64,000 bases of DNA, taken from an uncultured Porphyromonadaceae bacterium. Lineage in GTDB: Bacteria > Bacteroidota > Bacteroidia > Bacteroidales > Muribaculaceae. The notes beneath the pieces were generated by a model, which searched no databases, had not been told where the DNA came from, and was given only the letters and a program-made list of their open reading frames with translations. Position numbers and translations under genes: made by a program. The stretch covers positions 62,001 through 126,000 of the forward strand of contig CAMNRO010000001.1 in NCBI GenBank assembly GCA_946553045.1. Direction: 5' to 3'. Positions within the stretch are counted from its first letter, which is position 1. Every line of letters starts with the position of its first letter. This document shows positions 8,736 to 56,079 of this stretch, in pieces.

Positions 8736-10319
8736 TTAGAACGAGTCGTTCTGAGTCAGGTTGGGATTGTTGTTCACTTCCTTCTGCGGGAAAGGCAGCC
8801 ATTCACGTCCGGGAACAAAGTTAAGACGGTGTTTCTCGCTGTAGGATTTCACATATTCGGTATATTCGGCATCAGAACCGAGACCCCAGCGGCGAAGGTC
8901 GAAGAAACGGTCATACTCGAACATCAACTCTTTGCCGCGCTCTTTCTGCAGACGGCGCATGAACGATTTCTTGTCCTTGAGGCAGTCTTTATGCACGCTC
9001 TGAGCCAGGGGGTAGAGGTTTACGCGCTCGCGAACCATATCGACATACTTGGCGGCGTCTTTCAGAGGTGCTCCGGTCTCGGCAAGACACTCGGCATAGC
9101 TCAGGAGGACGTCGGCATAGCGGAGTATGCGCACGTTGATGGCATTGGGGTTGGTAGCGGCCTTAGCATTCAAATAGTAGTCCGTGCAATACTTGCGGCA
9201 CCAGCACTGCTTTTTCCAGAGGTCGTCGCGCCAGTTTGTGATCTGGCCGTCGCCGGGATAGAGAACCTCTCCGGGGAAGTCCTTCCAGAGGTCGGGATAT
9301 ACGATATTGTCGCGCAGACGGACGTCGTAGCCACCGTCGCGGGTCTTCTCGTCCTTATACATTGCCACAGTCCAGTCGGGTACAAAATAGTCACCGAATC
9401 CTACGGGCGAGGCCGACATGAAGCGTTCGCGCCAATTGCCGAAGTTGCAGTCGGCACCATCATTTCCTATCATACCCCAGAAACCACCGATTTTGTTGGG
9501 ACTCTCGTCTGAGTTCTGTGTCTCGAAGATAGATTCGGTGTTGTTTTCCGAATCATGGCGGAAGTTGTCGCGATATTTTGCAACAAGCTGATATTTCCCT
9601 GAGTCTATTACTTTTTTGAAGCAATCTTTTGCCGACGCAAAATCGTGAGTATTCATGTAGAGTTTACCGAGGAAGCAGAGAGCATGATACTTGTTCACAC
9701 GACCCACTTCCGAATAAGAATCAGGAAGATTGGCAACGGCATATTTTAAGTCTTCTTCAACAAATTTGCAGTTAGCCTCGAAAGTAGATTCTGCTGGTTG
9801 GTCGGAAGGTGCCGAAATCCAGTCTACCAGAGGTGCTTTCTTGTAGAGCATGGTCAGGTAGTAGTAGTGCATGCCACGGAGAGCGCGGGCCTGGGCGAGG
9901 ACATCGGTTTTCTTGTCTTCGCTGCTCCATTCGATTTCATCGGCGTGGATTATCACCTGATTGGCGCGGAAGATAGCCTGATAGAGAAGATTATATGTAT
10001 AGAGATTCCAGCGCTGATCGTAGTTTGTATAGTTCAGATTGATGAGCGACTTGAGTTCGTTGTCGGGCGAATCAGAGGTAAATTCATCCGACTGACCCGA
10101 ACACATATATGCGTTAAGATTGGTATAGAAACTATTGTACAGAGCATGATATGCCCCTGTAAGACCGCTTTCTACTCCGGCCTGGGTATTCCATGCCACT
10201 TCGGCGGTGAGTTTATTTGGGTCGCTGAGTTCGAGCAAAGATTCGTTGCACGAAGTAATTGCAAGTGCTGCGGTGCCGACAACTGCGGCAACTGATATGG
10301 TCTTTATATATTTTATCAT
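8736..10319 (-). CDS. SusD/RagB-family surface glycan-binding lipoprotein
   Basis: A 527-residue SusD-like lipoprotein. The signal peptide ends with a lipobox (LAITSC), so Cys24 is probably lipidated. TPR-like helices follow (ARALRGMHYYYLTMLYK, the conserved SusD core), and the C-terminal segment LQKERGKELMFEYDRFFDLRRWG is the family signature. SusD proteins sit on the cell surface as a lid on a SusC channel and capture oligosaccharides. It lies 12 bases downstream of the SusC gene and is the last gene of the operon. The neighbouring GH51 and GH43 enzymes point to arabinan or arabino-oligosaccharides as ligand (inference). Confidence 0.95.
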   Translation of the reverse strand: MIKYIKTISVAAVVGTAALAITSCNESLLELSDPNKLTAEVAWNTQAGVESGLTGAYHALYNSFYTNLNAYMCSGQSDEFTSDSPDNELKSLINLNYTNYDQRWNLYTYNLLYQAIFRANQVIIHADEIEWSSEDKKTDVLAQARALRGMHYYYLTMLYKKAPLVDWISAPSDQPAESTFEANCKFVEEDLKYAVANLPDSYSEVGRVNKYHALCFLGKLYMNTHDFASAKDCFKKVIDSGKYQLVAKYRDNFRHDSENNTESIFETQNSDESPNKIGGFWGMIGNDGADCNFGNWRERFMSASPVGFGDYFVPDWTVAMYKDEKTRDGGYDVRLRDNIVYPDLWKDFPGEVLYPGDGQITNWRDDLWKKQCWCRKYCTDYYLNAKAATNPNAINVRILRYADVLLSYAECLAETGAPLKDAAKYVDMVRERVNLYPLAQSVHKDCLKDKKSFMRRLQKERGKELMFEYDRFFDLRRWGLGSDAEYTEYVKSYSEKHRLNFVPGREWLPFPQKEVNNNPNLTQNDSF

Positions 10320-10331
10320 TGTTGAATTAGA

Positions 10332-13300
10332 TTAGAAATCAATATTAACACCGAACACCCACGATTTGGGTGATGGATAAGCGCTCATGTCTACACCGGG
10401 AAGGAAGATATTATTGCTGTTGAAATCGGGGTCAAAGCCTTTATATTTGGAAATGGTGATGAGGTTCTGGCCTGTCACAGATACTTTCACATTTTCCACA
10501 TATCCCTTAAGGAATTTAGGCTTCCAGTTATAGGCAAGCGAGATAGAGCTGAATCGGAAGAACGAAGCGTCCTCAAGCCAGCGGTCGCACCACAAGTGGC
10601 TGTTGCGCTCGTCGCCGTAGATAGGACGAGGGTTCTTCGAACCCATGTTTGTAGGACTCCAATAGTCATACCCGGCATATGCGCCCTTGCAGTCGTTGAT
10701 ACCTTCCATATATCGACGTGTATCATTGTAGGCGTACTGACCAAACTTTCCGTAACCAACCACACCGAAATCGAAATTCTTCCATGAGAGTTGCACATTG
10801 AGACCGAGTTCGAGTTTTGGCCATGGGCTACGGTCATCTATGGTAGTAGCGTCGCCCGATGTAATCTGTCCGTCGTCGTTGGTATCGACATAGCGTATAT
10901 CGCCCGGACCGGCATCGGGTTGAATCACCTGACCTTTGGAGTTCTTGTGAGCCAGAACTTCGTCCATGCTCTGGAAGATACCGTCGGTCTTCACGAGATA
11001 GAATTTACCGACAGACTGACCAACGCGGGTTACGGTATATGTGCCGTACTGGTTGCCGTCGAACTGCTCGGCCTTACCGTATCCGAACTTGAGCAGTTTG
11101 TTGTCGGAGTGGTTCATATTGAGGCTAACAGAATATGAGAAACCGTTTTCAAGTCGGTCGCGCCATGTGGCAGTAAGTTCGAAGCCCTTATTTTCGATCG
11201 AAGCGGCGTTCACCACGGGGCTACCGCCTGCATTACCCGTCGAACCGAGGATAGGCAGACCTGTAAGCACGTCGTGAGATGTCGATATATAGTATTCAGC
11301 GGTAACAGAAAGGCGGTTGTTGAGGAAACTGAGATCTACACCGAAGTTTTTCTGCTCCATGGTTTCCCACGAAAGGTCGGAATTGGAGAGCGAAGCTACA
11401 GTCTGACCTATTGTCGTACCCTTTCCGTCGCCGTTGAATAGATATTGGGCGGTACTGAGCATATACATCTGGTAGTCATAGTAGCCTATATTCTGGCTGC
11501 CGAGTTTACCCCAGTTGGCGCGGATTTTAAGGTCATTAATCCAGCCTGCCTTGAAGAATTTTTCCTGACTGATACGCCAGCCAACAGACGCGGAAGGAAA
11601 TGTGCCCCATTTGTAGCCCTTTCCGAAACGTGATGTTCCGTCGATACGACCGGTGATACTCAAAAGATAGCGACCATCGTAATCGTAATTGACTCGACCG
11701 AGGTAAGATATAAGAGCTGCTTCATACATACTGCCCGAGGCGGTCGCGCCGGCAGTTCCGGCATTCACGGTATGAAGCCAGCCAGCTCCGGGAATTTCAA
11801 TAAGATTCTGCTTGGAGGCTTCGGCATTTTTTACGCGAGTCTTCTGATATGTCTGACCCACAACGGCATCGACGTTGTGCCCTCCGAACTTTTTGTTGAA
11901 CGAAAGAGTATTCTCAATCAAATAGTTATAGCGTCGATTCCATGTAGTAGTAGCAGAGTTCGGACCGTCGGCTTTATTCAGGCCTGTGCCGTAGCCCTTG
12001 GTCCATGAGTCGCGGCTCGAATCCATGATGTCGGCACCGAGATTGATTTTATATTTCAGGAAGTCGAAAATGGTGAGTTCAGCCCAGGCGTTCGCTCGGA
12101 TAGTGACGAATTCAGTCTTGGTATCACCATTATCAACGGCTGCAAATGGATTATAGGCCAGAGTCCTGGCTCGAGTCTGGTCTCCGCGGCCATAACCATG
12201 GGTCGTACCGAGGGGGCCGTCATCATAGATAGGTACCGTAGGGATAAGTTCGACAATGTCCTGAATTACACCGCCGCCCATGATACTGCTTGCATTCCTG
12301 AGCTTGGTACGCGACACTGCAATGTTCTCTCCCGCACGCACACGCCCGAGAGTTCCCTGACTATTGATACGCGCCGTAAGGCGTTCCATACCTCGGCCGG
12401 GGGTTGTTGCACTGTTGCCCATATAGTTGAGCGACGCACGATAGGTTCCGTGCTTTGAGCCGCCCGACATACTGAAGTCGTATGTCTGCATGACACCGGT
12501 CTTAAACCATTCGCCCTGCCAGTCGGTGTCGTATTCGCGGTGGTCGAAACGCTCGGTCACGCCCTGCACACCGATGGCGATGGCGTTGTCGACAGCGACA
12601 TCGTAGAGAGCCTTCCACTCGGCGGCGCGTGCCATCTTGAGCTTGGGAAGATTCTGGATTGCAACCTGCGACATGAAGCCGAACTTGGTGCGGCCATCCT
12701 TACCACCCTTGGTGGTGATGATGATCACACCGTTGGCTGCACGCGAACCGTAGATGGCGGCTGCGGAAGCGTCCTTGAGTACCTGAATGGTTTCGATGTC
12801 GTTGATGTTGAAGTGAATGTCGTTGGAGGTAGGCACCCCGTCAATTACATAGAGGGGGTCGTTGTTGGTGAGGTTGCCTACACCGCGGATCTGAATCTGG
12901 GGAAGCGAGCCGATTTCACCGCCCGTACGCACGCTCACGCCGGCAGCGGCGCCGAGGAGCATTTCGCCTACAGAGGTGTTGGTGCGCTGGCTGTAGTCTT
13001 CCGGTTTCACAACCGAAACAGCGCCCGTAAGGTCGGCTTTCTTGACTGTACCATAACCGATGGCAACCACTTCGTCGAGCTGGATGCCCGATTCCTTCAT
13101 CGTCACGTTCACTACGCTGCGGTTCTGCACAGGAACCTCGACCGTAGCGAGGCCGACGTATGAGAATACGAGGGTTCCGTTGCCGGGAGCATTGATTTCA
13201 TATTTACCGTCGATGTCGGTGGTATTGGCCACCTTTGTGTCTTTCAGCACCACGGAGGCTCCGATTACCGGTTCGCCGTCTTCTGTGGAGACAAGGCCGG

Positions 13301-13412
13301 TCACTTTCTGTGCCATTGCAGGCAGAGCGGCAAAGACCGCCAGCATCACAATGAAGGCCTTGAAGAATGCCGGAATTCGTCCGGACAGATTCTGTCGATT
13401 GGTCATTTTCAT
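10332..13412 (-). CDS. SusC/RagA-family TonB-linked outer-membrane transporter
   Basis: A 1026-residue SusC-like protein. The signal peptide is followed by a carboxypeptidase-regulatory-like domain (KVTGLVSTEDGEPVIGASVVLKDT..., about residues 36-110), a TonB-box/plug start (LDEVVAIGYGTVKKADLTGAV), the SusC plug signature (QIQIRGVGNLTNNDPLYVIDG) and a long barrel ending in ...KSWVFGVNIDF with terminal Phe. There is no STN domain, so no anti-sigma signalling is expected. It imports oligosaccharides too large for porins, together with the SusD lid. The gap to the upstream enzyme gene is 211 bases and contains two inverted repeats. Confidence 0.96.
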   Translation of the reverse strand: MKMTNRQNLSGRIPAFFKAFIVMLAVFAALPAMAQKVTGLVSTEDGEPVIGASVVLKDTKVANTTDIDGKYEINAPGNGTLVFSYVGLATVEVPVQNRSVVNVTMKESGIQLDEVVAIGYGTVKKADLTGAVSVVKPEDYSQRTNTSVGEMLLGAAAGVSVRTGGEIGSLPQIQIRGVGNLTNNDPLYVIDGVPTSNDIHFNINDIETIQVLKDASAAAIYGSRAANGVIIITTKGGKDGRTKFGFMSQVAIQNLPKLKMARAAEWKALYDVAVDNAIAIGVQGVTERFDHREYDTDWQGEWFKTGVMQTYDFSMSGGSKHGTYRASLNYMGNSATTPGRGMERLTARINSQGTLGRVRAGENIAVSRTKLRNASSIMGGGVIQDIVELIPTVPIYDDGPLGTTHGYGRGDQTRARTLAYNPFAAVDNGDTKTEFVTIRANAWAELTIFDFLKYKINLGADIMDSSRDSWTKGYGTGLNKADGPNSATTTWNRRYNYLIENTLSFNKKFGGHNVDAVVGQTYQKTRVKNAEASKQNLIEIPGAGWLHTVNAGTAGATASGSMYEAALISYLGRVNYDYDGRYLLSITGRIDGTSRFGKGYKWGTFPSASVGWRISQEKFFKAGWINDLKIRANWGKLGSQNIGYYDYQMYMLSTAQYLFNGDGKGTTIGQTVASLSNSDLSWETMEQKNFGVDLSFLNNRLSVTAEYYISTSHDVLTGLPILGSTGNAGGSPVVNAASIENKGFELTATWRDRLENGFSYSVSLNMNHSDNKLLKFGYGKAEQFDGNQYGTYTVTRVGQSVGKFYLVKTDGIFQSMDEVLAHKNSKGQVIQPDAGPGDIRYVDTNDDGQITSGDATTIDDRSPWPKLELGLNVQLSWKNFDFGVVGYGKFGQYAYNDTRRYMEGINDCKGAYAGYDYWSPTNMGSKNPRPIYGDERNSHLWCDRWLEDASFFRFSSISLAYNWKPKFLKGYVENVKVSVTGQNLITISKYKGFDPDFNSNNIFLPGVDMSAYPSPKSWVFGVNIDF

Positions 13413-13623: not shown

Positions 13624-16209
13624 TTATTTAGCGTCGGAGATGACGGGCCAGCCGTCTTCCCACTTGATTTCGCGGAGGAAGAGTTTGCTGGCTCCGCGGC
13701 GGCTTTTATCGTAGGCATGGGCTATGAAATACCACTTGCCGTCTATTTCGTAGACACTGCAGTGACCGACACCGCTGTATGCGGGGCTTTCGCCTACAAT
13801 AATCTCGCCGCCACATTCGGTCATTGGCCTGCCGTCTTTGCCGACATAAGGCCCGGCGACCTTGCGGCTGCGCCCCACGGCAGTCTTATAGTTACTGCTC
13901 AAGCCTTTGCAGCAATAGTCGTAGCTCACGAAGAGATAGTACCAGCCGTCGTGACAGGCGATGAACGGTGCTTCGATGGCATTGGTGTTGGCAGTCTCGT
14001 TGCCGTGCGCTACTTTGTCGGCCGGACGTCGACGGGCTATGGTAACTGGAGCTCCGACAGGAGTTTTCATATCTTTGTCGAGCTGAACGAGCTGAATTCC
14101 ATCCCAGAACGAACCGAAAGTCATCCAGGGTGTACCCTTTTCATCGATGATAATGTTGGGGTCGATGGCGTTCCAGTCGTTTACACCGGGCTGAGAGCGG
14201 ATTACGGCCCCAAGGTCCTCCCACTTATAGTCGGGGCTGTTCGGGTTGAGGGTCTTGTTGGTAGCCACACCTATGACCGAGATATTTTTATAGAAGGTCG
14301 AGCAGCTGTAGTAAAGATACCATCGGTCGCCGACCTTGATGATGTCGGGAGCCCAGGTATGTCCGCCATACGATGGCACGAACTCTACGGGCCAGGTGGG
14401 AGTCGGGTCGAGCGGTGCTTTCTCCTGCTTCCATGTCTTGAGGTCGGTCGACGACATCATGCCGATGCCGAAACCGGTGGTAAACATATAGTACACACCG
14501 TCTTCCTTGGCCATTACAGGGTCGTGAACATCGGGGTTCGCGGCATCGAACTCGAAATGAGGACGACGAGGCATAGGCTTCGAGAGCGTACGCTGCAGGA
14601 AGTTTGCAATGCCACCGGTGGCCTGCTCGTGGTGGGCGGAATTGGAGAATCCGTGGTCACCGCCGGGCACGACCTGCTTCTCGCACTTTTCGTAGATTTC
14701 GGCAGCCTTGTCGGCACCGGCAGCCACGAAGTCGCGGTCGCCATAGACGATGAACACATCGCCCTTGTAGGCCGGAATCGAGTCGAACACATTCACTCCG
14801 TTGATTTTCTCATAGTAAACACGGCCAAGCTTCATACCCATGAGTTCCTGGGGGCGACCGCCGTCGGCGTCGAAACGCTTGAGCATCATCGGAGCGGTGT
14901 CGGGGATAGTGAGGGCGGGATATACGAGAACGAGCGATTTAAAAAGGTTGGGATTTGCCGCGCTCGTGAGAGCTGCCACGAGACCACCCTGGCTGCAGCC
15001 GACGAGCGCCATGCGGGTCGAATCGACAAAATCCCATGTCCTGGCGGCTGCCACGATATCCTCGATATTTGCTTTTTCGGTGAAGACGGTCATTTCGGTG
15101 GTTACGCCGTCGCTCTTGCTGTGATTGCCACCGCCGCAGAAGTCGAAGATGTAGCTTGCCACACCGCGCATAGCCATGGTTTCGGCGAAGGGCTGGGGTT
15201 CGCGGTATGTACCGTTGTAGCCGTGAGCCATGATGGCGAGGGGCTTGCGGGCATCGCCACCGGTGGGGATATAGACACGGCCTCTGATGGTCTTGCCGTC
15301 GCGGGCTTTCACGTCGATTTCCTTGATGGTGAAGGGAATGTTCTCATCGGGGAAGTTCTTGGCCTTCATGGTGTAGTCGGGGAAGTCGCGGAGACGGTTG
15401 CGGAGGAACACGTCGAGATCGGCGCGCTTGTCCTTGAACTGCCAGCCGAGCCATGCCCGGGCCATGCGGGAGAAAGAGCCGCCGAAAGGCTCATGGTAAG
15501 TGCCTCCATGACCTATGCGGAGGTGATTGGCGAAAGCCACAGGCACATGATTGATGCGGTCGTAGTCGAGCTGCGCGTTCTCATAGGCGATATCGCCTTC
15601 GCCGCCGATGATATAGAGAATCGGACAGTGGAGATTGCGGAGCGACTCGCCGGAAGCTTCCGACATACTGATGTCGCCCATGCCGGAGTTGAACATTATG
15701 CATGTCTTCACTCGGGGGTCACCGCAGTTGGCCAGCAGCTGGGCGCCGCCGCAGCTCATGCCGCCGAGGCCTACATATTCGAGGTCGATGCCTTTATAGT
15801 AGGGGCTCGAAGAGTCTTTGACAACGCGCTCCGCCCAGTCGATGGCGCGGGGCATGTCCTCGTTGGGCGACTTGTGGAGCTCGCGGTCGGAGATGCTGTC
15901 CTGCATCTCGCCGAGGGCCACTACGAGGTAGCCGTAGGAGGCAAGGTCGCTGAGCATGCGCTCGTGGGGGAGCGATGTGTCGTTGCAGCCGCCGTTGGCG
16001 AACACGAAGAGCGGAAGCGGGCCTTCGCCTTTCACTGCGGCCTTGTAGTCGGCCGGACGGTAGACCACATAGCCGGGCAGTGTCGGCTCGCTGATGGCCT
16101 CGGACTTGTAGGGGCCGCTGCCGCCGTCGTCGAGGACCTTGCGTGTCGGAGCAGCCGAAAGGTTCAGGAACAGCGCCGAAAGAATTGTAAATAAGAATAG
16201 TCTCTTCAT
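13624..16209 (-). CDS. Triple-domain fusion: two alpha/beta-hydrolase domains plus GH43 endo-arabinanase-like domain
   Basis: An 861-residue secreted protein (signal peptide ending LSAAP). Residues about 30-280 form a first alpha/beta-hydrolase domain with nucleophile elbow GGMSCGG (Ser152). Residues about 290-545 form a second one with GCSQGG (Ser406), an Asp in VYGDRD and His in GGDHGF. Residues about 550-861 are a GH43 five-bladed propeller resembling endo-1,5-alpha-L-arabinanases: catalytic base Asp563 in VHDPV, Asp683 in NAIDPN and acid Glu746 in AIEAPFI are all present. The frame is continuous, so this is one polypeptide. It would combine ester removal (acetyl or feruloyl, inferred) with arabinan cleavage. 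Its ATG overlaps the stop of the carboxylesterase gene, as part of the GH51-to-SusD operon. Confidence 0.88.
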   Translation of the reverse strand: MKRLFLFTILSALFLNLSAAPTRKVLDDGGSGPYKSEAISEPTLPGYVVYRPADYKAAVKGEGPLPLFVFANGGCNDTSLPHERMLSDLASYGYLVVALGEMQDSISDRELHKSPNEDMPRAIDWAERVVKDSSSPYYKGIDLEYVGLGGMSCGGAQLLANCGDPRVKTCIMFNSGMGDISMSEASGESLRNLHCPILYIIGGEGDIAYENAQLDYDRINHVPVAFANHLRIGHGGTYHEPFGGSFSRMARAWLGWQFKDKRADLDVFLRNRLRDFPDYTMKAKNFPDENIPFTIKEIDVKARDGKTIRGRVYIPTGGDARKPLAIMAHGYNGTYREPQPFAETMAMRGVASYIFDFCGGGNHSKSDGVTTEMTVFTEKANIEDIVAAARTWDFVDSTRMALVGCSQGGLVAALTSAANPNLFKSLVLVYPALTIPDTAPMMLKRFDADGGRPQELMGMKLGRVYYEKINGVNVFDSIPAYKGDVFIVYGDRDFVAAGADKAAEIYEKCEKQVVPGGDHGFSNSAHHEQATGGIANFLQRTLSKPMPRRPHFEFDAANPDVHDPVMAKEDGVYYMFTTGFGIGMMSSTDLKTWKQEKAPLDPTPTWPVEFVPSYGGHTWAPDIIKVGDRWYLYYSCSTFYKNISVIGVATNKTLNPNSPDYKWEDLGAVIRSQPGVNDWNAIDPNIIIDEKGTPWMTFGSFWDGIQLVQLDKDMKTPVGAPVTIARRRPADKVAHGNETANTNAIEAPFIACHDGWYYLFVSYDYCCKGLSSNYKTAVGRSRKVAGPYVGKDGRPMTECGGEIIVGESPAYSGVGHCSVYEIDGKWYFIAHAYDKSRRGASKLFLREIKWEDGWPVISDAK

Positions 16210-17657
16210 TATTTGGTCTTGATATATGACTTGTTATCGAATACCATCGTGGGGCATGTGGTGTCGTTGTAAGGCTCCCACTTGGGAAGCCCCTTGGTGT
16301 TGGGGTTGCCGTTGCGGATAAAGGCAATCCATGCCGAGCTCATCTTGTCGGCGAGCTCGTATGCCTCTTTGGTCGCGCCGGTCATTTCGGGCTGAAGCTC
16401 GATGTTGTTGAACATGAAGGGAAGTTCCATGCCGTGGCATGCGCCGAGGGTGTTGCCTTCGGGCTTCCAGTTGAAGAGGTAGAGATATGCGTCGGCTGTG
16501 CCCTGAGCGGCTTTGTTGCGGGCCTGGTTGATGGCGCCGTCGCGGAACATTGTGTCTTCCTTGCCGTTGAGGAAATCGAACTCGTTGAAGTTCCAGCCAA
16601 TCATCATGGGCACTTCAGCGCTTACTTCGGGTGCACCGTTCTCAAAACCCGGAGCAACGATGTGCTTGCCGTCGAGCACCGGACCCATCATGCCTCTTCT
16701 CACGTCCTTGCCCTGGGCCTTGAGTGTCATGTTGACAGCGTTCATGCTCTTGTTGACGGCAGCAACGAGCTCCTTGTAGGGAACAGCGTTAAGACCCTCT
16801 ACATCGTCGGCCTTGAGACCGAGCTCGTTCAGGAGAGCCTTGCCGTAGAGCTCGGCATACTCGTTCACATTCTGGCGGGCGAAAGAACCGCTCTGCACGA
16901 TTGCGCGGTGAAACAGGCCTTTGGCCGCGGGCATCATCATGACGGTGGAAACCTTGCCGCCGCCACCACTTTGGCCGCCGATGGTCACGCAGTCGGGGTC
17001 GCCGCCGAAGTTGGCTATATTATCGTGAACCCATTCGAGGGATTTAACGAGGTCCTGCATGCCGAGGTTGGCGGAATCGGAATAACGGCCACCGAGACCC
17101 GACATGTCGAAATAACCGAGAGTATTTAGGCGGTGGTTTACAGTCACGACAACAATATCGCCCTTTTCGGCGAGGGCGCGGCCTTCGTAGCAGGGAAGGT
17201 CATGGCCGGAGCCGGTCGCGAAGCCTCCGCCGTGGAACCACACGAATACCGGACGTTTCTTACCGTCGTCGAGACCCTTGGTCCATACGTTGAGCACGAG
17301 GCATTTTTCCTCGTCCATCGGCTCCATCACGAACTGGAAGCCGAAATCGTTGTCGCTCTGAGGATTTCCCTTGAAATCGAGGGTCTGACCCTGGGGTGCC
17401 TTGGGACCATACACGCGGCATTTGAGCACGCCCTCGTGCGATTCGGGCTTCTGGGGCGGCATGAAACGCTCGGCATGAGCGTAGGGTATACCCTTGAATG
17501 TGTAGACATCGCCGTCGCGATAGCCCTGGATTTTACCATAGACGGTATTGGCGGTCGTGGACTCGTCGGACACGAGCGGACCGACCGTGCGGGCCTCGGC
17601 ACACATCATGGCAGAGGCGCAAAGTGCGATTGCTAATGCGGATTTGATTGTTTTCAT
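16209..17657 (-). CDS. Secreted type-B carboxylesterase
   Basis: A 482-residue carboxylesterase/lipase-family protein with signal peptide (cleavage near AEA). It has the type-B landmarks: FKGIPYA near the N-terminus, LNVWTKG, oxyanion-hole HGGGFATGS, nucleophile elbow GGQSGGGG with Ser230, and the late His in CHGMELPFMFNN. Such enzymes remove acyl groups; within this arabinan locus it may deacylate pectic side chains such as acetylated or feruloylated arabinan (inference). It is in an operon: 3 bases separate it from the GH51 stop upstream, and its own stop overlaps the ATG of the fusion gene (TAATG). Confidence 0.88.
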   Translation of the reverse strand: MKTIKSALAIALCASAMMCAEARTVGPLVSDESTTANTVYGKIQGYRDGDVYTFKGIPYAHAERFMPPQKPESHEGVLKCRVYGPKAPQGQTLDFKGNPQSDNDFGFQFVMEPMDEEKCLVLNVWTKGLDDGKKRPVFVWFHGGGFATGSGHDLPCYEGRALAEKGDIVVVTVNHRLNTLGYFDMSGLGGRYSDSANLGMQDLVKSLEWVHDNIANFGGDPDCVTIGGQSGGGGKVSTVMMMPAAKGLFHRAIVQSGSFARQNVNEYAELYGKALLNELGLKADDVEGLNAVPYKELVAAVNKSMNAVNMTLKAQGKDVRRGMMGPVLDGKHIVAPGFENGAPEVSAEVPMMIGWNFNEFDFLNGKEDTMFRDGAINQARNKAAQGTADAYLYLFNWKPEGNTLGACHGMELPFMFNNIELQPEMTGATKEAYELADKMSSAWIAFIRNGNPNTKGLPKWEPYNDTTCPTMVFDNKSYIKTK

Positions 17658-17660
17658 GGC

Positions 17661-20186
17661 TTAGCGTGTGCTCTTCACACGAAGGATGGTAAATGAATTA
17701 GGTTTGAAGGTATATTTGAATTCTTTTCCGAAGCCATCGAAGGTAGTTTCTACCGGAACGATTTTTTCGGGGTTGTCCATCGAGTTTTCATCGGTCTTGG
17801 AGGCTGAGCTGAGTGTGATTACTGTACCCTGGGGTGCGACTTCCTTGGCCTTGAGGGCGATAGTGGGAGTATAATCCTGATCGGTTGAGTTCACGACCTT
17901 GATTACGGTCTCGCCGGTGGCTTCGTCGTAGCCGGCTGCGGTATAGTGGCCTGTGGGAGCGGAAGCTACCTGGCGGAACACTTCGTCGCCGTCGAGGTCT
18001 ACGGTCACCATGTTGTTCTTGCCGAGGTCTACCTTCACTTTATACCATTTATCCTTGTCGAGCTGCAGGCTGCCACCGCCGGGGTTGCTGTCGGCATTGG
18101 CGCCGCCGCTGGTCGAGCGGCTCATGGATATAATCTTTCTGTCGCCTACGTTGCGGGGAAGATTGATGATGAAATAGTCTTCGAGACCATTGTCAGCACC
18201 GAAAATGAGCGACGGACCGAGGATAGCCTTGCGCGGGCTGCGATCGGGGTCGAAATGAGGAGCGGGAACTTCGCGCTCTACGAGGCGGATATCGAATTCG
18301 AGCGAGCCACCGTCGAGATTGAGGTCCTTGAGCATGTTGGTGACGGTAGAGCCGTTGAAGCGGCTGCGCGATTTCTTTTTTGTGGTTACAAGGTCGGTGG
18401 CGTTTACGTTTTCGGCGATTACTTTGCCGTTGGCGTCGCGAACGGTGATGTTGCGCACCATGTCGCCAATATTATTGCCGAGGAAGCCGACTCCACCTGC
18501 CGTGAGAACGCGCTGAGGCTCTTCGTTGTTGATTTCGACATTGTAGGTCGGGCGGTTATTGGCATACATCTGCTGCACATAGTACGATGCACGGCCCATG
18601 GTCTTTTCATTGTCATACCAGATGAGGTTGGTGGGCCAGTCGCGGCGGTTCACGTTCTCGAAGAGAGGCGCATAGGAAGCCATCTTCACGAGGTCGGAGT
18701 TGCGTTCAACACCGGTGAGGAATGCAGCTTCTGCAAGAGCGGCATTGAGGTTGGCTTCTGTGATGACTGCATATTCGCCGATATAAACGTCGTATTTACC
18801 GCGCTCCATATCGTCGAAAAGACGGTCGTTTTCATAGAAGAAACCGGGGTTCACATACCAGTGGGGGTCAATCATATCGGCCTTTTCAAGCTTTTCGCGG
18901 CTGGGCGAGAGCTGAAGGGTGGAAATGAAGGTGATGTCGGGATATTTCTCCTTGAGAATGCGGTAGAAATAGTTGTAGCGCTGTGCATAGTGGTCGCCGA
19001 CCTGCTCGTTGCCGAGCTCTACATACTTGAGATTGAAGGGCTCGGGGTGACCTGCGGCGGCGCGCATGGCGCCCCAGGGGTTGCTCACGGGAGCGGTGGC
19101 ATAGTCGATGGCATCGATGATGTCCTGGAGGAAAGGCTCGTAGTCTTCGGTCCAGTCGCCGTTGCGCACGGAGCAGGATAGACCTACATTGGCAACGAAC
19201 ATGCCGGCTGCGCCCACGTCCTCGCAGAACTGGAGGAATTCATGATAACCCATGCCCCAGGTGCTGTGGTAGTTCCAGAGAATCCACTCGCTGTGGCGCT
19301 TCATCGGGTCGCCTATTGTCTCTTTCCACTTCACGCGGTTCTCAAGGGTTGCACCTTCCACGATACAACCGCCCGGCCAGCGGATAAAGCCGGGCTTGAG
19401 GTCGGCTATCTTCTGAGCCACATCGGCACGGAGACCGTTCTTGCGGCCCTTGAATGTATTCTGCGGGAAGAGCGATACATAATCGACATACACCTTGCCG
19501 GTCTTGCCGAAAACAAGCTGAAGGTTAGCCTTGTAGTCGGTAGCTTTGGCTGTGAGTTCGCCTGTAAACTCCTTCCAGCCGCTGCCTTTGACAACATCGA
19601 AAGTAGCTTTTGCAAGTTCCTTGCCTTTTTCGGATACGACACGGGCGGTGACGGGGCCGGTATAGTCCACGGGATTAAGATAGAACCGAAGGTCGTACTT
19701 GTCTTTGCCGATAATGCGCATGCCCCAGTAGCCCGAGTTGGCGAGAACAACGCCGGGAGCTTCGAGATCGAGGCGCATTGCATGGGGTGTGGCCGGGTCG
19801 AGCTGATTTTCATCGGTTATGTCGTATGTGGCCTTGCCGGTCACAGTCCAGCCGTCCATTTTTAGCGAGTCGGTATCCCATTTTATTTTCCAGTCGCGGT
19901 AGTTTCCGTGCTCATAGTTGAGGCTGTGGGGAGCGCAGGCATAGCCGTCCTTATATGTCATGCCCGAAGGAAGCACATGCTCCTCGAAGTTGCGGTTCTT
20001 GACGAGTTCGGCATATATACCGCCGTCGCCGGCGTGATTGATTTCTTCGAAAAACACTCCATAGAGACTTTCGGAAACATCGTGGCCTTTCTTGCCGAGA
20101 TCAACTCCGATAGTCTGCGCCATGGCGGTCGCTCCGGCTGTGAGGAGCGTTGCGAGTGCAAGATGTCTGAATCCTGGTTTATTCAT
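17661..20186 (-). CDS. GH51 alpha-L-arabinofuranosidase
   Basis: An 841-residue secreted enzyme that removes terminal alpha-L-arabinofuranosyl residues from arabinan and arabinoxylan. The signal peptide is followed by LYGVFFEEINHAGDGGIYAELVKNRNFEE, the family start. A carbohydrate-binding-like insert lies near residues 90-220, then the catalytic barrel with acid/base Glu394 in ELGNEQ and nucleophile Glu471 in YIGEYAV. A C-terminal beta domain ends at residue 841. It is the first gene of the minus-strand arabinan operon and has a promoter element at 20229-20236. Release of free arabinose would feed the araBAD-type cluster about 12 kb downstream. Confidence 0.94.
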   Translation of the reverse strand: MNKPGFRHLALATLLTAGATAMAQTIGVDLGKKGHDVSESLYGVFFEEINHAGDGGIYAELVKNRNFEEHVLPSGMTYKDGYACAPHSLNYEHGNYRDWKIKWDTDSLKMDGWTVTGKATYDITDENQLDPATPHAMRLDLEAPGVVLANSGYWGMRIIGKDKYDLRFYLNPVDYTGPVTARVVSEKGKELAKATFDVVKGSGWKEFTGELTAKATDYKANLQLVFGKTGKVYVDYVSLFPQNTFKGRKNGLRADVAQKIADLKPGFIRWPGGCIVEGATLENRVKWKETIGDPMKRHSEWILWNYHSTWGMGYHEFLQFCEDVGAAGMFVANVGLSCSVRNGDWTEDYEPFLQDIIDAIDYATAPVSNPWGAMRAAAGHPEPFNLKYVELGNEQVGDHYAQRYNYFYRILKEKYPDITFISTLQLSPSREKLEKADMIDPHWYVNPGFFYENDRLFDDMERGKYDVYIGEYAVITEANLNAALAEAAFLTGVERNSDLVKMASYAPLFENVNRRDWPTNLIWYDNEKTMGRASYYVQQMYANNRPTYNVEINNEEPQRVLTAGGVGFLGNNIGDMVRNITVRDANGKVIAENVNATDLVTTKKKSRSRFNGSTVTNMLKDLNLDGGSLEFDIRLVEREVPAPHFDPDRSPRKAILGPSLIFGADNGLEDYFIINLPRNVGDRKIISMSRSTSGGANADSNPGGGSLQLDKDKWYKVKVDLGKNNMVTVDLDGDEVFRQVASAPTGHYTAAGYDEATGETVIKVVNSTDQDYTPTIALKAKEVAPQGTVITLSSASKTDENSMDNPEKIVPVETTFDGFGKEFKYTFKPNSFTILRVKSTR

Positions 20187-20228: not shown

Positions 20229-20236
20229 CAAAATTA
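20229..20236 (-). promoter_or_regulatory. Promoter -7 element of the arabinan operon
   Basis: Minus strand TAATTTTG matches TAnnTTTG, 42 bases before the GH51 ATG. No TTTG is present at -33, which suggests activator dependence. The divergent regulator promoter lies about 60 bases away. Confidence 0.65.
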
Positions 20237-20294
20237 TCCTTGTTTTTTCAATTTTTATGTAGGCCATTTGTAAAAAAATATCAGTTATTTGTAT

Positions 20295-20302
20295 TAACTT
20301 TG
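20295..20302 (+). promoter_or_regulatory. Promoter -7 element of the hybrid regulator gene
   Basis: TAACTTTG matches TAnnTTTG, 23 bases before the regulator ATG at 20326. A TTTG at 20267-20270 is 24 bases upstream, somewhat further than the usual 19-21. Confidence 0.65.
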
Positions 20303-20325: not shown

Positions 20326-21825
20326 ATGAAAACGCCATTCGTCCTCTTTTTAGCCCTTTTTGCCGCCCTATCGGCGTATGCAGACACACTACGGCCGCAC
20401 GCCAGAATAAGGACAATATGGGTTCATGCTCACAATATGACCGATTCGGTCTATTTCGACCACAGCATGAACAATGTACGATTCTATCTTACAAACGACG
20501 AACTCATACCGACCGACTCGGTCGAATACCGCATATGGCTGAAAGGAGCCGACGAAGGCTGGATCACTCCTGTCGAAAAAGACTGGCACTTCTACAGCGA
20601 CCTAAAACCGGGCGAATATACATTCAAGGCACAGTGCCGCCTTACCGACGGAAAATGGGGCCCGGAGATAGTACGCGATTTCACTATCCTTAATCCCTGG
20701 TGGAGGACCACGCCGGCCCTGCTCGCATACATTATTATAATAAGCGGCATCACCGCATATATCATATATCTTCTGCGGGCCCGAATGAAAATCAGAAACC
20801 AGCTGATGCTCGAACGCAAGAATCAGCTTTTCAAGAACGAGCTCGTGCTCCATGCTTCGCGTGAGTTCAGGACACCTCTCATCATCATAAGGTCGACAAT
20901 AGAAAAACTTAAAAATGGGAATGACAGACTGTCACCCACCGACATTCGCCATCTTCGTGCGAGTAGCCGCTCGCTCATGCAGATGGTCGAACAGCTCGCC
21001 GGCTACGGCGAACCCGGTGTCGAAGAGCGACAGCTGCAAAAAGAGAAAATAACTGAAAACACCGAAGCGCCCGTCAACAGCGACACATACGCTGTCATCG
21101 CCGTTCCAGACGTGCAGCTCGGTGAGGTCCTGAAGCGCGACATGCAGAAATCGCTCGAAGTAGTGCTGTCCGACGGCAGCGACATTTCGAGGATAATCGA
21201 GGAGAAAACACCCGACGCTATAGTGCTTGACACCGATTTGACCGAAATAAACGCATACACTTATCTGCATAAACTGAAGACAGACCCAGCTACTGCCGAT
21301 ATTCCAGTGGTACTAATTTCTACTTTCGACAACAGCCGAAGTCTGCTACGAGCAATCCGCTCGGAAGCCGACGACTATCTTGCAAAGCCGTTTAGCTGCG
21401 AAGTTCTTACGGCAATGGTCATCAAAAATATCAAAGCAGCCCGTGAAAAATCGACTAACCCTCCAGATAACATTATAAGCCGCAAACCTGTTTACGAGAA
21501 TAAAAACGATAAGCAGTTCTTGGCAAAACTCGAAAAAACAGTCAACAGCCATCTCGGCGACAACGACTTCGACGTAAACGCGCTTGCTCAAGCCCTCGAA
21601 ATGAGCCGGGTACAACTCTACACCAAACTTAAAGAACTCAACGGCATGAGCCCCGTAGAGTATCTGCGCGACATGCGCCTCGAACGCGCCGCCGCACTTC
21701 TGCGCGATTCTAACCTCACGGTCAAGGAGGTCCGCGACCGAGTTGGCATGCCCGATGCCACAAACTTCCACCGCCGCTTCAAAGAAAAATACGGCACCAG
21801 CCCCGGTGCGTTCAATCAATCTTAA
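20326..21825 (+). CDS. Reduced hybrid two-component-type regulator (Y_Y_Y, TM, dead histidine region, REC, AraC)
   Basis: A 499-residue protein related to hybrid two-component systems (HTCS) of Bacteroidetes glycan loci, which are usually about 1300 residues. Order: signal peptide 1-19; periplasmic Y_Y_Y-like immunoglobulin domain about 25-122 ending NPWWRTTP; one membrane helix about 130-150; a short dimerisation-helix region where the histidine motif reads SREFRTPL, so Arg179 replaces the phospho-accepting His; a receiver domain about 254-372 with Asp302, Ser332 and Lys354 kept; and an AraC DNA-binding domain about 395-499. The beta-propeller and the HATPase domain are missing. Nothing upstream could supply them, because the divergent GH51 gene begins 139 bases away. 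It probably controls the arabinan operon by a mechanism that needs no kinase (inference). Confidence 0.85.
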   Translation: MKTPFVLFLALFAALSAYADTLRPHARIRTIWVHAHNMTDSVYFDHSMNNVRFYLTNDELIPTDSVEYRIWLKGADEGWITPVEKDWHFYSDLKPGEYTFKAQCRLTDGKWGPEIVRDFTILNPWWRTTPALLAYIIIISGITAYIIYLLRARMKIRNQLMLERKNQLFKNELVLHASREFRTPLIIIRSTIEKLKNGNDRLSPTDIRHLRASSRSLMQMVEQLAGYGEPGVEERQLQKEKITENTEAPVNSDTYAVIAVPDVQLGEVLKRDMQKSLEVVLSDGSDISRIIEEKTPDAIVLDTDLTEINAYTYLHKLKTDPATADIPVVLISTFDNSRSLLRAIRSEADDYLAKPFSCEVLTAMVIKNIKAAREKSTNPPDNIISRKPVYENKNDKQFLAKLEKTVNSHLGDNDFDVNALAQALEMSRVQLYTKLKELNGMSPVEYLRDMRLERAAALLRDSNLTVKEVRDRVGMPDATNFHRRFKEKYGTSPGAFNQS

Positions 21826-55968: not shown

Positions 55969-56079
55969 TTATTTTCAAAAAATTAAGAGATTGTTTAAAA
56001 ACATCTGATAACAAAGACAGCGGACAATATCCAATTTCACGACAGTCTAAAAAAATTATCGGGCAAATTTACTACAATA

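Follow-up and report, generated by a model that had tools for sequence, protein, structure and literature searches.

The closest described systems to the regulator analysed here are the Bacteroides HTCSs, such as BT4124 and BT4663 (PMC11253607, PMC3878776), which likewise have a Y_Y_Y domain, a single membrane helix, a DHp hairpin, a receiver and an AraC domain. In the mechanism proposed in PMC11253607, an S/CHIP-DK contact lets the receiver, while unphosphorylated, keep the AraC domain away from DNA; this lock is described as present in most HTCSs, not all. The same paper reports that BT4124 and BT4663 variants with Ala-Gly or Ala-Asp in place of the S/C-H pair bind DNA without phosphorylation, with phosphorylation still raising the DNA affinity of the BT4663 lock variants, and BT4236, an HTCS with Gln in place of the phospho-histidine, has been suggested to be phosphorylation independent. 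PMC3878776 presents SusR as a membrane-bound regulator that senses in the periplasm and binds DNA through a cytoplasmic domain, the latter being described as unlike that of other known transcription factors. Finally, HP1043, ChxR and FrzS have a receiver fold without the catalytic residues, and phosphorylation-independent action is known for some pseudo-receivers or atypical response regulators (PMC12632262).

A 499-aa protein encoded at 20326..21825 on the forward strand of the window (the whole stretch of 64,000 nucleotides analysed here) resembles the Bacteroides HTCSs in these domains and in lying beside polysaccharide enzyme genes, but is devoid of the propeller, the phospho-histidine, the ATPase domain, the receiver acidic pair and the S/C-H half of the lock. 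We consider it probable that this mini-regulator is a derived HTCS turned into a one-step, phosphate-independent, membrane-spanning transcription regulator. A membrane-anchored one-step sensor was one of three options offered by an earlier, sequence-only reading of the locus, and it is the one that fits best.

The list of open reading frames and Pfam yield the order signal peptide, Y_Y_Y domain, membrane helix, DHp-like hairpin, pseudo-receiver and AraC domain, in agreement with the layout of one Y_Y_Y, one membrane helix, a receiver and an AraC domain, and no propeller or ATPase domain, that had been read from the letters. The hydropathy profile presents two hydrophobic stretches: an N-terminal one, interpreted as the signal peptide, and a second that starts at residue 132, corresponding to a single membrane helix (about residues 129-150, 20710..20775, limits set by eye). 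The periplasmic, Ig-like Y_Y_Y domain precedes this helix (residues 23-125, 20392..20700, from a residue table and a Pfam match at 64-121 with 36.8 bits). Behind it, and on the same forward strand, follow the DHp-like helical hairpin (residues 151-228, 20776..21009; HisKA at 170-224 with 21.0 bits, under the 26.9 cut-off), with no ATPase domain after it, the pseudo-receiver (residues 253-375, 21082..21450; Response_reg at 276-365 with 48.6 bits, the profile being entered only at position 24) and the AraC-type DNA-binding domain (residues 395-499, 21508..21822; HTH_18 at 420-498 with 68.7 bits, and alignment to the HTCS structure 12aw). Reg_prop, Peripla_BP and HATPase_c were absent among the eight Pfam families that matched at E<=10, leaving Y_Y_Y alone, with no propeller or periplasmic-binding-protein sensor, and all of the 25 NCBIfam matches listed of 105 fell far under their cut-offs. 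A single-sequence structure prediction was too poor to use (mean pLDDT 44.7, pTM 0.22). Domain-by-domain HMM scoring places 22 aa between hairpin and receiver (22-23 aa in the orthologue set), compared with 192-219 aa in the 19 loci of ATPase-bearing HTCSs in which both domains were scored. Pfam and this comparison led us to abandon the description of the hairpin as a short helical remnant, since it is complete and HisKA-like to about residue 228.

The mini-regulator is present as a single copy in its own genome, among 12 search rows of which the remaining 11 correspond to five HTCS-type proteins (six rows; open frames of 915-1403 aa), a Y_Y_Y/AraC protein (two rows) and three short proteins of AraC or receiver type. 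Two further orthologues were identified among 397 genomes of the family, own genome included: a 511-aa gene in G172 (genus g13), 48% identical over 499 codons, and a gene in G122 (genus g15), for which identity is 43% by the search alignment and 41% when 382 codons are compared. A search for the same domain order in other genomes had been suggested, and that order is found complete in G172, with an HTH_18 match of 69.8 bits, and in G122 up to the contig end, into which the gene runs before the AraC domain; the mini family as treated here thus rests on three members, one of them cut. No orthologue was detected in the 48 other congeneric genomes (E<=1e-40), the other 13 genomes of g13 and seven of g15 (E<=1e-45), or 393 genomes of the order (profile search, E<=1e-45), where the relatives retrieved were all larger or differently organised; the same search of genus g30 (111 genomes) was negative at E<=1e-60. 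A contig search produced a single hit, to a Prochlorococcus record with a receiver stretch 31% identical. The wide searches considered the best two to three candidates per genome, which is adequate for orthologues and is no census of CA-less HTCSs. Orthologues in two other genera, a pN of 0.343 against a saturated pS of 0.768 for the window and G172 genes (no dN/dS ratio is given because dS is saturated) and the conserved promoter block described below uphold the earlier view of a gene that is maintained, not decaying. Between the window and G172 genes, identity is highest in the hairpin (59%) even though the kinase is gone, followed by the AraC domain (56%), the receiver (50%), Y_Y_Y (47%) and the linkers (16-17%); compared with G122, the hairpin (45%) is not the best kept, with the receiver at 46%.

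Divergent from the mini-regulator, on the reverse strand, lie genes for a GH51-type alpha-L-arabinofuranosidase (17661..20186), a type-B carboxylesterase (CE, 16209..17657) and an 861-aa fused alpha/beta-hydrolase-GH43 protein (13624..16209), with SusC (10332-13412) and SusD (8736-10319) genes in the same direction over 8736..13412. The hydrolase part or the GH43 part of the fusion is also matched alone in other genomes. G172 preserves the divergent GH51, CE and fusion order with one additional small ORF and no SusC/D genes after it. In G122, GH51 is reduced to its last 200 residues, CE is absent, the hydrolase part of the fusion is present and SusC/D-like genes are nearby on the opposite strand. 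At locus L033 (1293-1931), beside the G122 orthologue, the last 200 residues of GH51 stand behind a short unrelated start; the truncation could be a real deletion or a fault of the draft assembly. This remnant and the missing CE weaken the case for GH51 as a target of the mini-regulator. The earlier label of arabinan operon remains plausible in view of its GH51, GH43, esterase and SusC/D genes, with arabinan as a plausible substrate judging from the enzymes encoded, but the SusC/D genes do not follow the operon in G172 and occupy the other strand in G122. The congeners with the closest GH51 genes (G019 and G043, 70-71% identical) have no divergent regulator.

A 36-nt block (20267..20302, forward strand), identified by alignment and pattern search and conserved in the three genera, begins about 60 nt before the ATG and is closed by the TAnnTTTG -7 box TAACTTTG at 20295-20302, 23 nt before the ATG. 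Its identity is 26/36 between the window and either orthologue and 33/36 between G172 and G122, the best values in 30 mononucleotide shuffles each being 23-24. The pattern derived from the three copies has a single exact match per genome in all three, beside the mini-regulator gene, plus one extra three-mismatch site in the own genome; a shorter pattern gave a second match with three mismatches at 56057-56074 of the window (0.24 expected by chance). The block may be simply a promoter, or an operator too. On the GH51-operon side, a -7-like box, TAATTTTG (20229..20236, reverse strand), is the same in G172 and differs by one mismatch in G122. HTCS operators have been reported as direct repeats of about 21 bp (PMC3878776). 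With that spacing, the best repeats found here were no better than those of shuffled sequences (72, 199 and 69 of 200 as good), and an operator of this kind was discarded as a candidate. The G172 spacer contains a 15-nt direct repeat 41 nt apart that has no clear equivalent in the window; an 8-nt repeat with the same spacing is present there at another place.

The catalytic residues of the kinase and receiver carry most of the argument for a phosphate-free mode of action. HATPase_c has no Pfam match, and HisKA stays under its cut-off, in any of the three mini-family members, and all three have Arg at the H-box His position (Arg179, codon 20860-20862), confirming the substitution first noticed in the window. 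Such a loss is rare, the His being missing in 0.9% of HisKA domains (722 of 76,471; PMC12632262), and that source defines a pseudo-histidine kinase as a kinase relative without at least one of ATP binding, autophosphorylation and phosphotransfer; judged by its sequence, the mini-regulator belongs to this class. His176 (20851-20853), one helical turn before Arg179, is also invariant in the three members; elsewhere in the alignment this position is mostly Asn, Asp or Gln, and His in one protein. The receiver retains Asp302 (21229-21231) at the phospho-acceptor position, Ser332 and Lys354, all invariant in the three members, with Tyr or Phe at position 351. The Mg-binding acidic pair is replaced by VP in the window (V260-P261), by EP in G172, where one acidic residue (E) survives, and by VA in G122, the second position being non-acidic throughout. 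In PMC12632262, the second acidic residue is described as binding the metal directly, and a pseudo-receiver as a PF00072 domain without at least one of five catalytic residues. The claim of a receiver with its Asp retained thus stands as regards Asp302, but because the acidic pair is lost the domain classifies as a pseudo-receiver in spite of Asp302, Ser332 and Lys354. The stronger evidence for phosphate independence is that the ATPase domain, the His and the acidic pair are all missing together.

Conservation of Asp302, Ser332, Lys354 and an aromatic residue at 351 in all three members leaves room for noncanonical phosphorylation, and Asp302 might be phosphorylated in trans by another histidine kinase or by a small phosphodonor. 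This seems unlikely to us, since the acidic pair is gone in every member (VP, EP or VA), which also speaks against the earlier option of a receiver served by another kinase. Candidates for trans phosphorylation are to be found elsewhere: five proteins of genus g17 and one of G779, likewise kinase-less, keep the H-box His and the full acidic pair, unlike the mini-regulator. The g17 candidates combine a periplasmic-binding-protein sensor, an H-box His and a complete receiver with the lack of an ATPase domain (L036 9635-11842, L037, L038, L039 and L040 6759-8948; open frames of 734-748 aa, 652 aa in L039). SusC/SusD-like genes, as judged by eye, adjoin them in L036 and L040.

These six proteins belong to a set of ten other CA-less HTCS-like proteins recovered among the best two to three candidates per genome, which indicates that kinase loss recurs. 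Besides the g17 proteins, the set comprises propeller-bearing proteins of G686 and G779, two of G294 and G305 (L034 9485-13039, L035) that have propellers and Gly for the receiver Asp, and a 412-aa protein of G559 (413-aa open frame; L113 8500-9735) that lacks a periplasmic domain and consists of a membrane helix, a hairpin, a pseudo-receiver (EA pair, Ile for Ser/Thr) and an AraC domain. By eye, the L034 protein is divergent from SusC/SusD-like genes, and the L113 protein adjoins two ORFs that we take to be chromate-transporter-like. Absence of the ATPase domain was established with Pfam for G294 and G216 (no HATPase_c), from the sequence as read for G305 and G559, and from hairpin-receiver gaps of 34-56 aa for the others. 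All ten share a membrane-anchored DHp-REC-AraC arrangement without ATPase domain with the mini-regulator, but they keep the H-box His (10/10, with a full receiver in 6/10) where the latter has Arg. Two further proteins, of G419 and G532 (L079, L080), are full-length HTCSs (1442-aa open frame) with Asn for the phospho-His, Ala at the second acidic position, FHIP at the lock and a kinase-sized stretch in place, and would qualify as pseudo-HTCSs. Pseudo-receivers occur in 6/12 kinase-defective and 0/20 kinase-proficient proteins (Fisher p = 0.001) of 32 non-mini comparison proteins that were picked by similarity to the query, include near-copies and amount to about four independent pseudo-receiver lineages; L081, which ends before the receiver, and L008, which has no receiver, were left out. 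Since pseudo-receivers are confined to the kinase-defective proteins of this comparison, kinase loss and receiver decay go together. In the phylogenetic tree, the mini family forms a clade with 100/100 support apart from the other CA-less proteins, and the CA-less label needs at least four changes. An origin from the other CA-less proteins was rejected on this basis; with a midpoint root and a long mini branch (1.73), any assignment of a nearest full-length relative would be provisional. The own genome also encodes, at L112 4023-6125, a 701-aa protein with Y_Y_Y, a membrane helix (by eye) and an AraC domain, for which the domain comparison found no hairpin or receiver match and which is a candidate for another one-step membrane regulator.

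The inhibitory lock points in the same direction, with less specificity. The S/C-H position corresponds to A324-D325 (21295-21300) in the mini-regulator, which reads ADIP, and in the 12aw alignment the Cys-His of CHIP faces this Ala-Asp of the window REC-AraC part; the orthologues have Gly-Gly and Asn-Glu. The AraC-side Asp, just before the first helix core, and the Lys are kept, an assignment that follows our reading of the residue spacing of PMC11253607 on the 12aw alignment. The mini-regulator thus naturally has the Ala-Asp pair that was engineered into Bacteroides HTCSs, which fits DNA binding that no longer waits for phosphate. On the other hand, the S/C-H pair was found in 7/12 kinase-defective and 9/20 kinase-proficient comparison proteins, and since it is also missing from many of the latter, its loss is unspecific evidence.

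DHp hairpins dimerise, and the mini-regulator, having kept its hairpin, might pair with a full-length HTCS and dampen or redirect it; the five HTCS-type proteins of its genome would be potential partners. Yet no full HTCS gene was seen in the neighbourhood of the window copy or in the 19.9 kb surrounding the G172 orthologue, the mini-regulator has a conserved promoter of its own and a divergent operon, and its AraC domain is kept as if for direct DNA binding. Such heterodimerisation is, in our judgement, improbable, and the dominant partner of a full HTCS proposed by the sequence-only reading found no support.

The lost lock residues and the conserved promoter, which may give autoregulation, could also be accommodated by a signal-blind, constitutive DNA binder, whose membrane part is an anchor and whose activity is set by its expression level, and the mini-regulator has no recognised ligand-binding domain. 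Against this, its periplasmic domain is under about the same constraint as its receiver (42-54% versus 45-50% identity among the three members) and contains lineage-specific invariant aromatics, and we regard a signal-blind protein as having a low probability. The residues in question, W32, W87 and F89, are invariant in the three members. In the 24 further Y_Y_Y domains of the alignment, Trp is never seen at 32 or 87, nor Phe at 89; these domains present Phe or Tyr at position 87 in four cases, Tyr at 89 in one, and at 32 Phe in one and gaps in three. The aromatics suggest a lineage-specific contact, perhaps to a sugar or a partner, and are best seen as a lead. Tentatively, the Y_Y_Y domain itself could be the sensor, its aromatics binding an arabino-oligosaccharide or a partner carrying it, with a mechanical relay through the former kinase hairpin and the pseudo-receiver to DNA; the two-component chain would then have become a one-step membrane transcription factor, in one of several independent conversions in the order. 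A Y_Y_Y domain that senses directly would, to our knowledge, be without precedent, and this extended proposal is a possibility of clearly lower standing than one-step regulation as such.

The several missing catalytic features and the sparse distribution (own genome and two others among 397 in the family, 0/48 other congeners) might point to a full-length HTCS that suffered a recent deletion and is now decaying. This is highly improbable and largely refuted by the orthologues, given an arrangement common to three genera, reading frames that have stayed open while synonymous sites became saturated, a conserved promoter and no full-length version at the site in G019 and G043. Full-length HTCS orthologues in sister strains, named earlier as the sign of a recent deletion, were thus not found in the 48 congeners, and a recent deletion was rejected.

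Under one-step, phosphate-independent regulation, a periplasmic event at the Y_Y_Y domain, such as the binding of a ligand or partner, would alter the packing of two protomers. The membrane helix would pass this change on to the DHp-like hairpin, which would act as a dimeric signal rod and not as a kinase, and the pseudo-receivers would then position two AraC domains on DNA. With the receiver half of the REC-DBD lock missing, DNA binding would be independent of phosphorylation, and the likeliest targets would be the divergent GH51-esterase-hydrolase/GH43 operon and the mini-regulator's own promoter.

FrzS, which came up as a structure match and which we take to be a pseudo-receiver, is, like HP1043 and ChxR, a non-membrane protein, whereas the pseudo-receiver of the mini-regulator is joined to a preceding pseudo-kinase hairpin that is anchored in the membrane. 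By its published description, BT4236 shares the lost phospho-His and a non-consensus lock (CSIP-EK in BT4236). In its predicted mode of action the mini-regulator would resemble SusR as described, with a periplasmic sensing part, a membrane passage, a cytoplasmic DNA-binding part and no kinase; set against that description, its clear AraC/HTH_18 domain behind a pseudo-receiver would be a difference. Ideas of phosphorylation-independent HTCSs and of membrane regulators therefore exist, but the combination seen here appears to be unreported in the literature covered, since no description of this layout was found in openly accessible publications (most subscription journals lie outside that coverage).

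Signalling by HTCSs is taken to proceed by phosphotransfer, which makes the relay from periplasm to AraC domain difficult to disentangle from the chemistry of the kinase. The mini-regulator provides a minimal system, made by nature, in which to ask if a signal can pass mechanically along the hairpin, and it serves as a warning that HTCS-like annotations can hide regulators that would be invisible to any phosphorylation assay.
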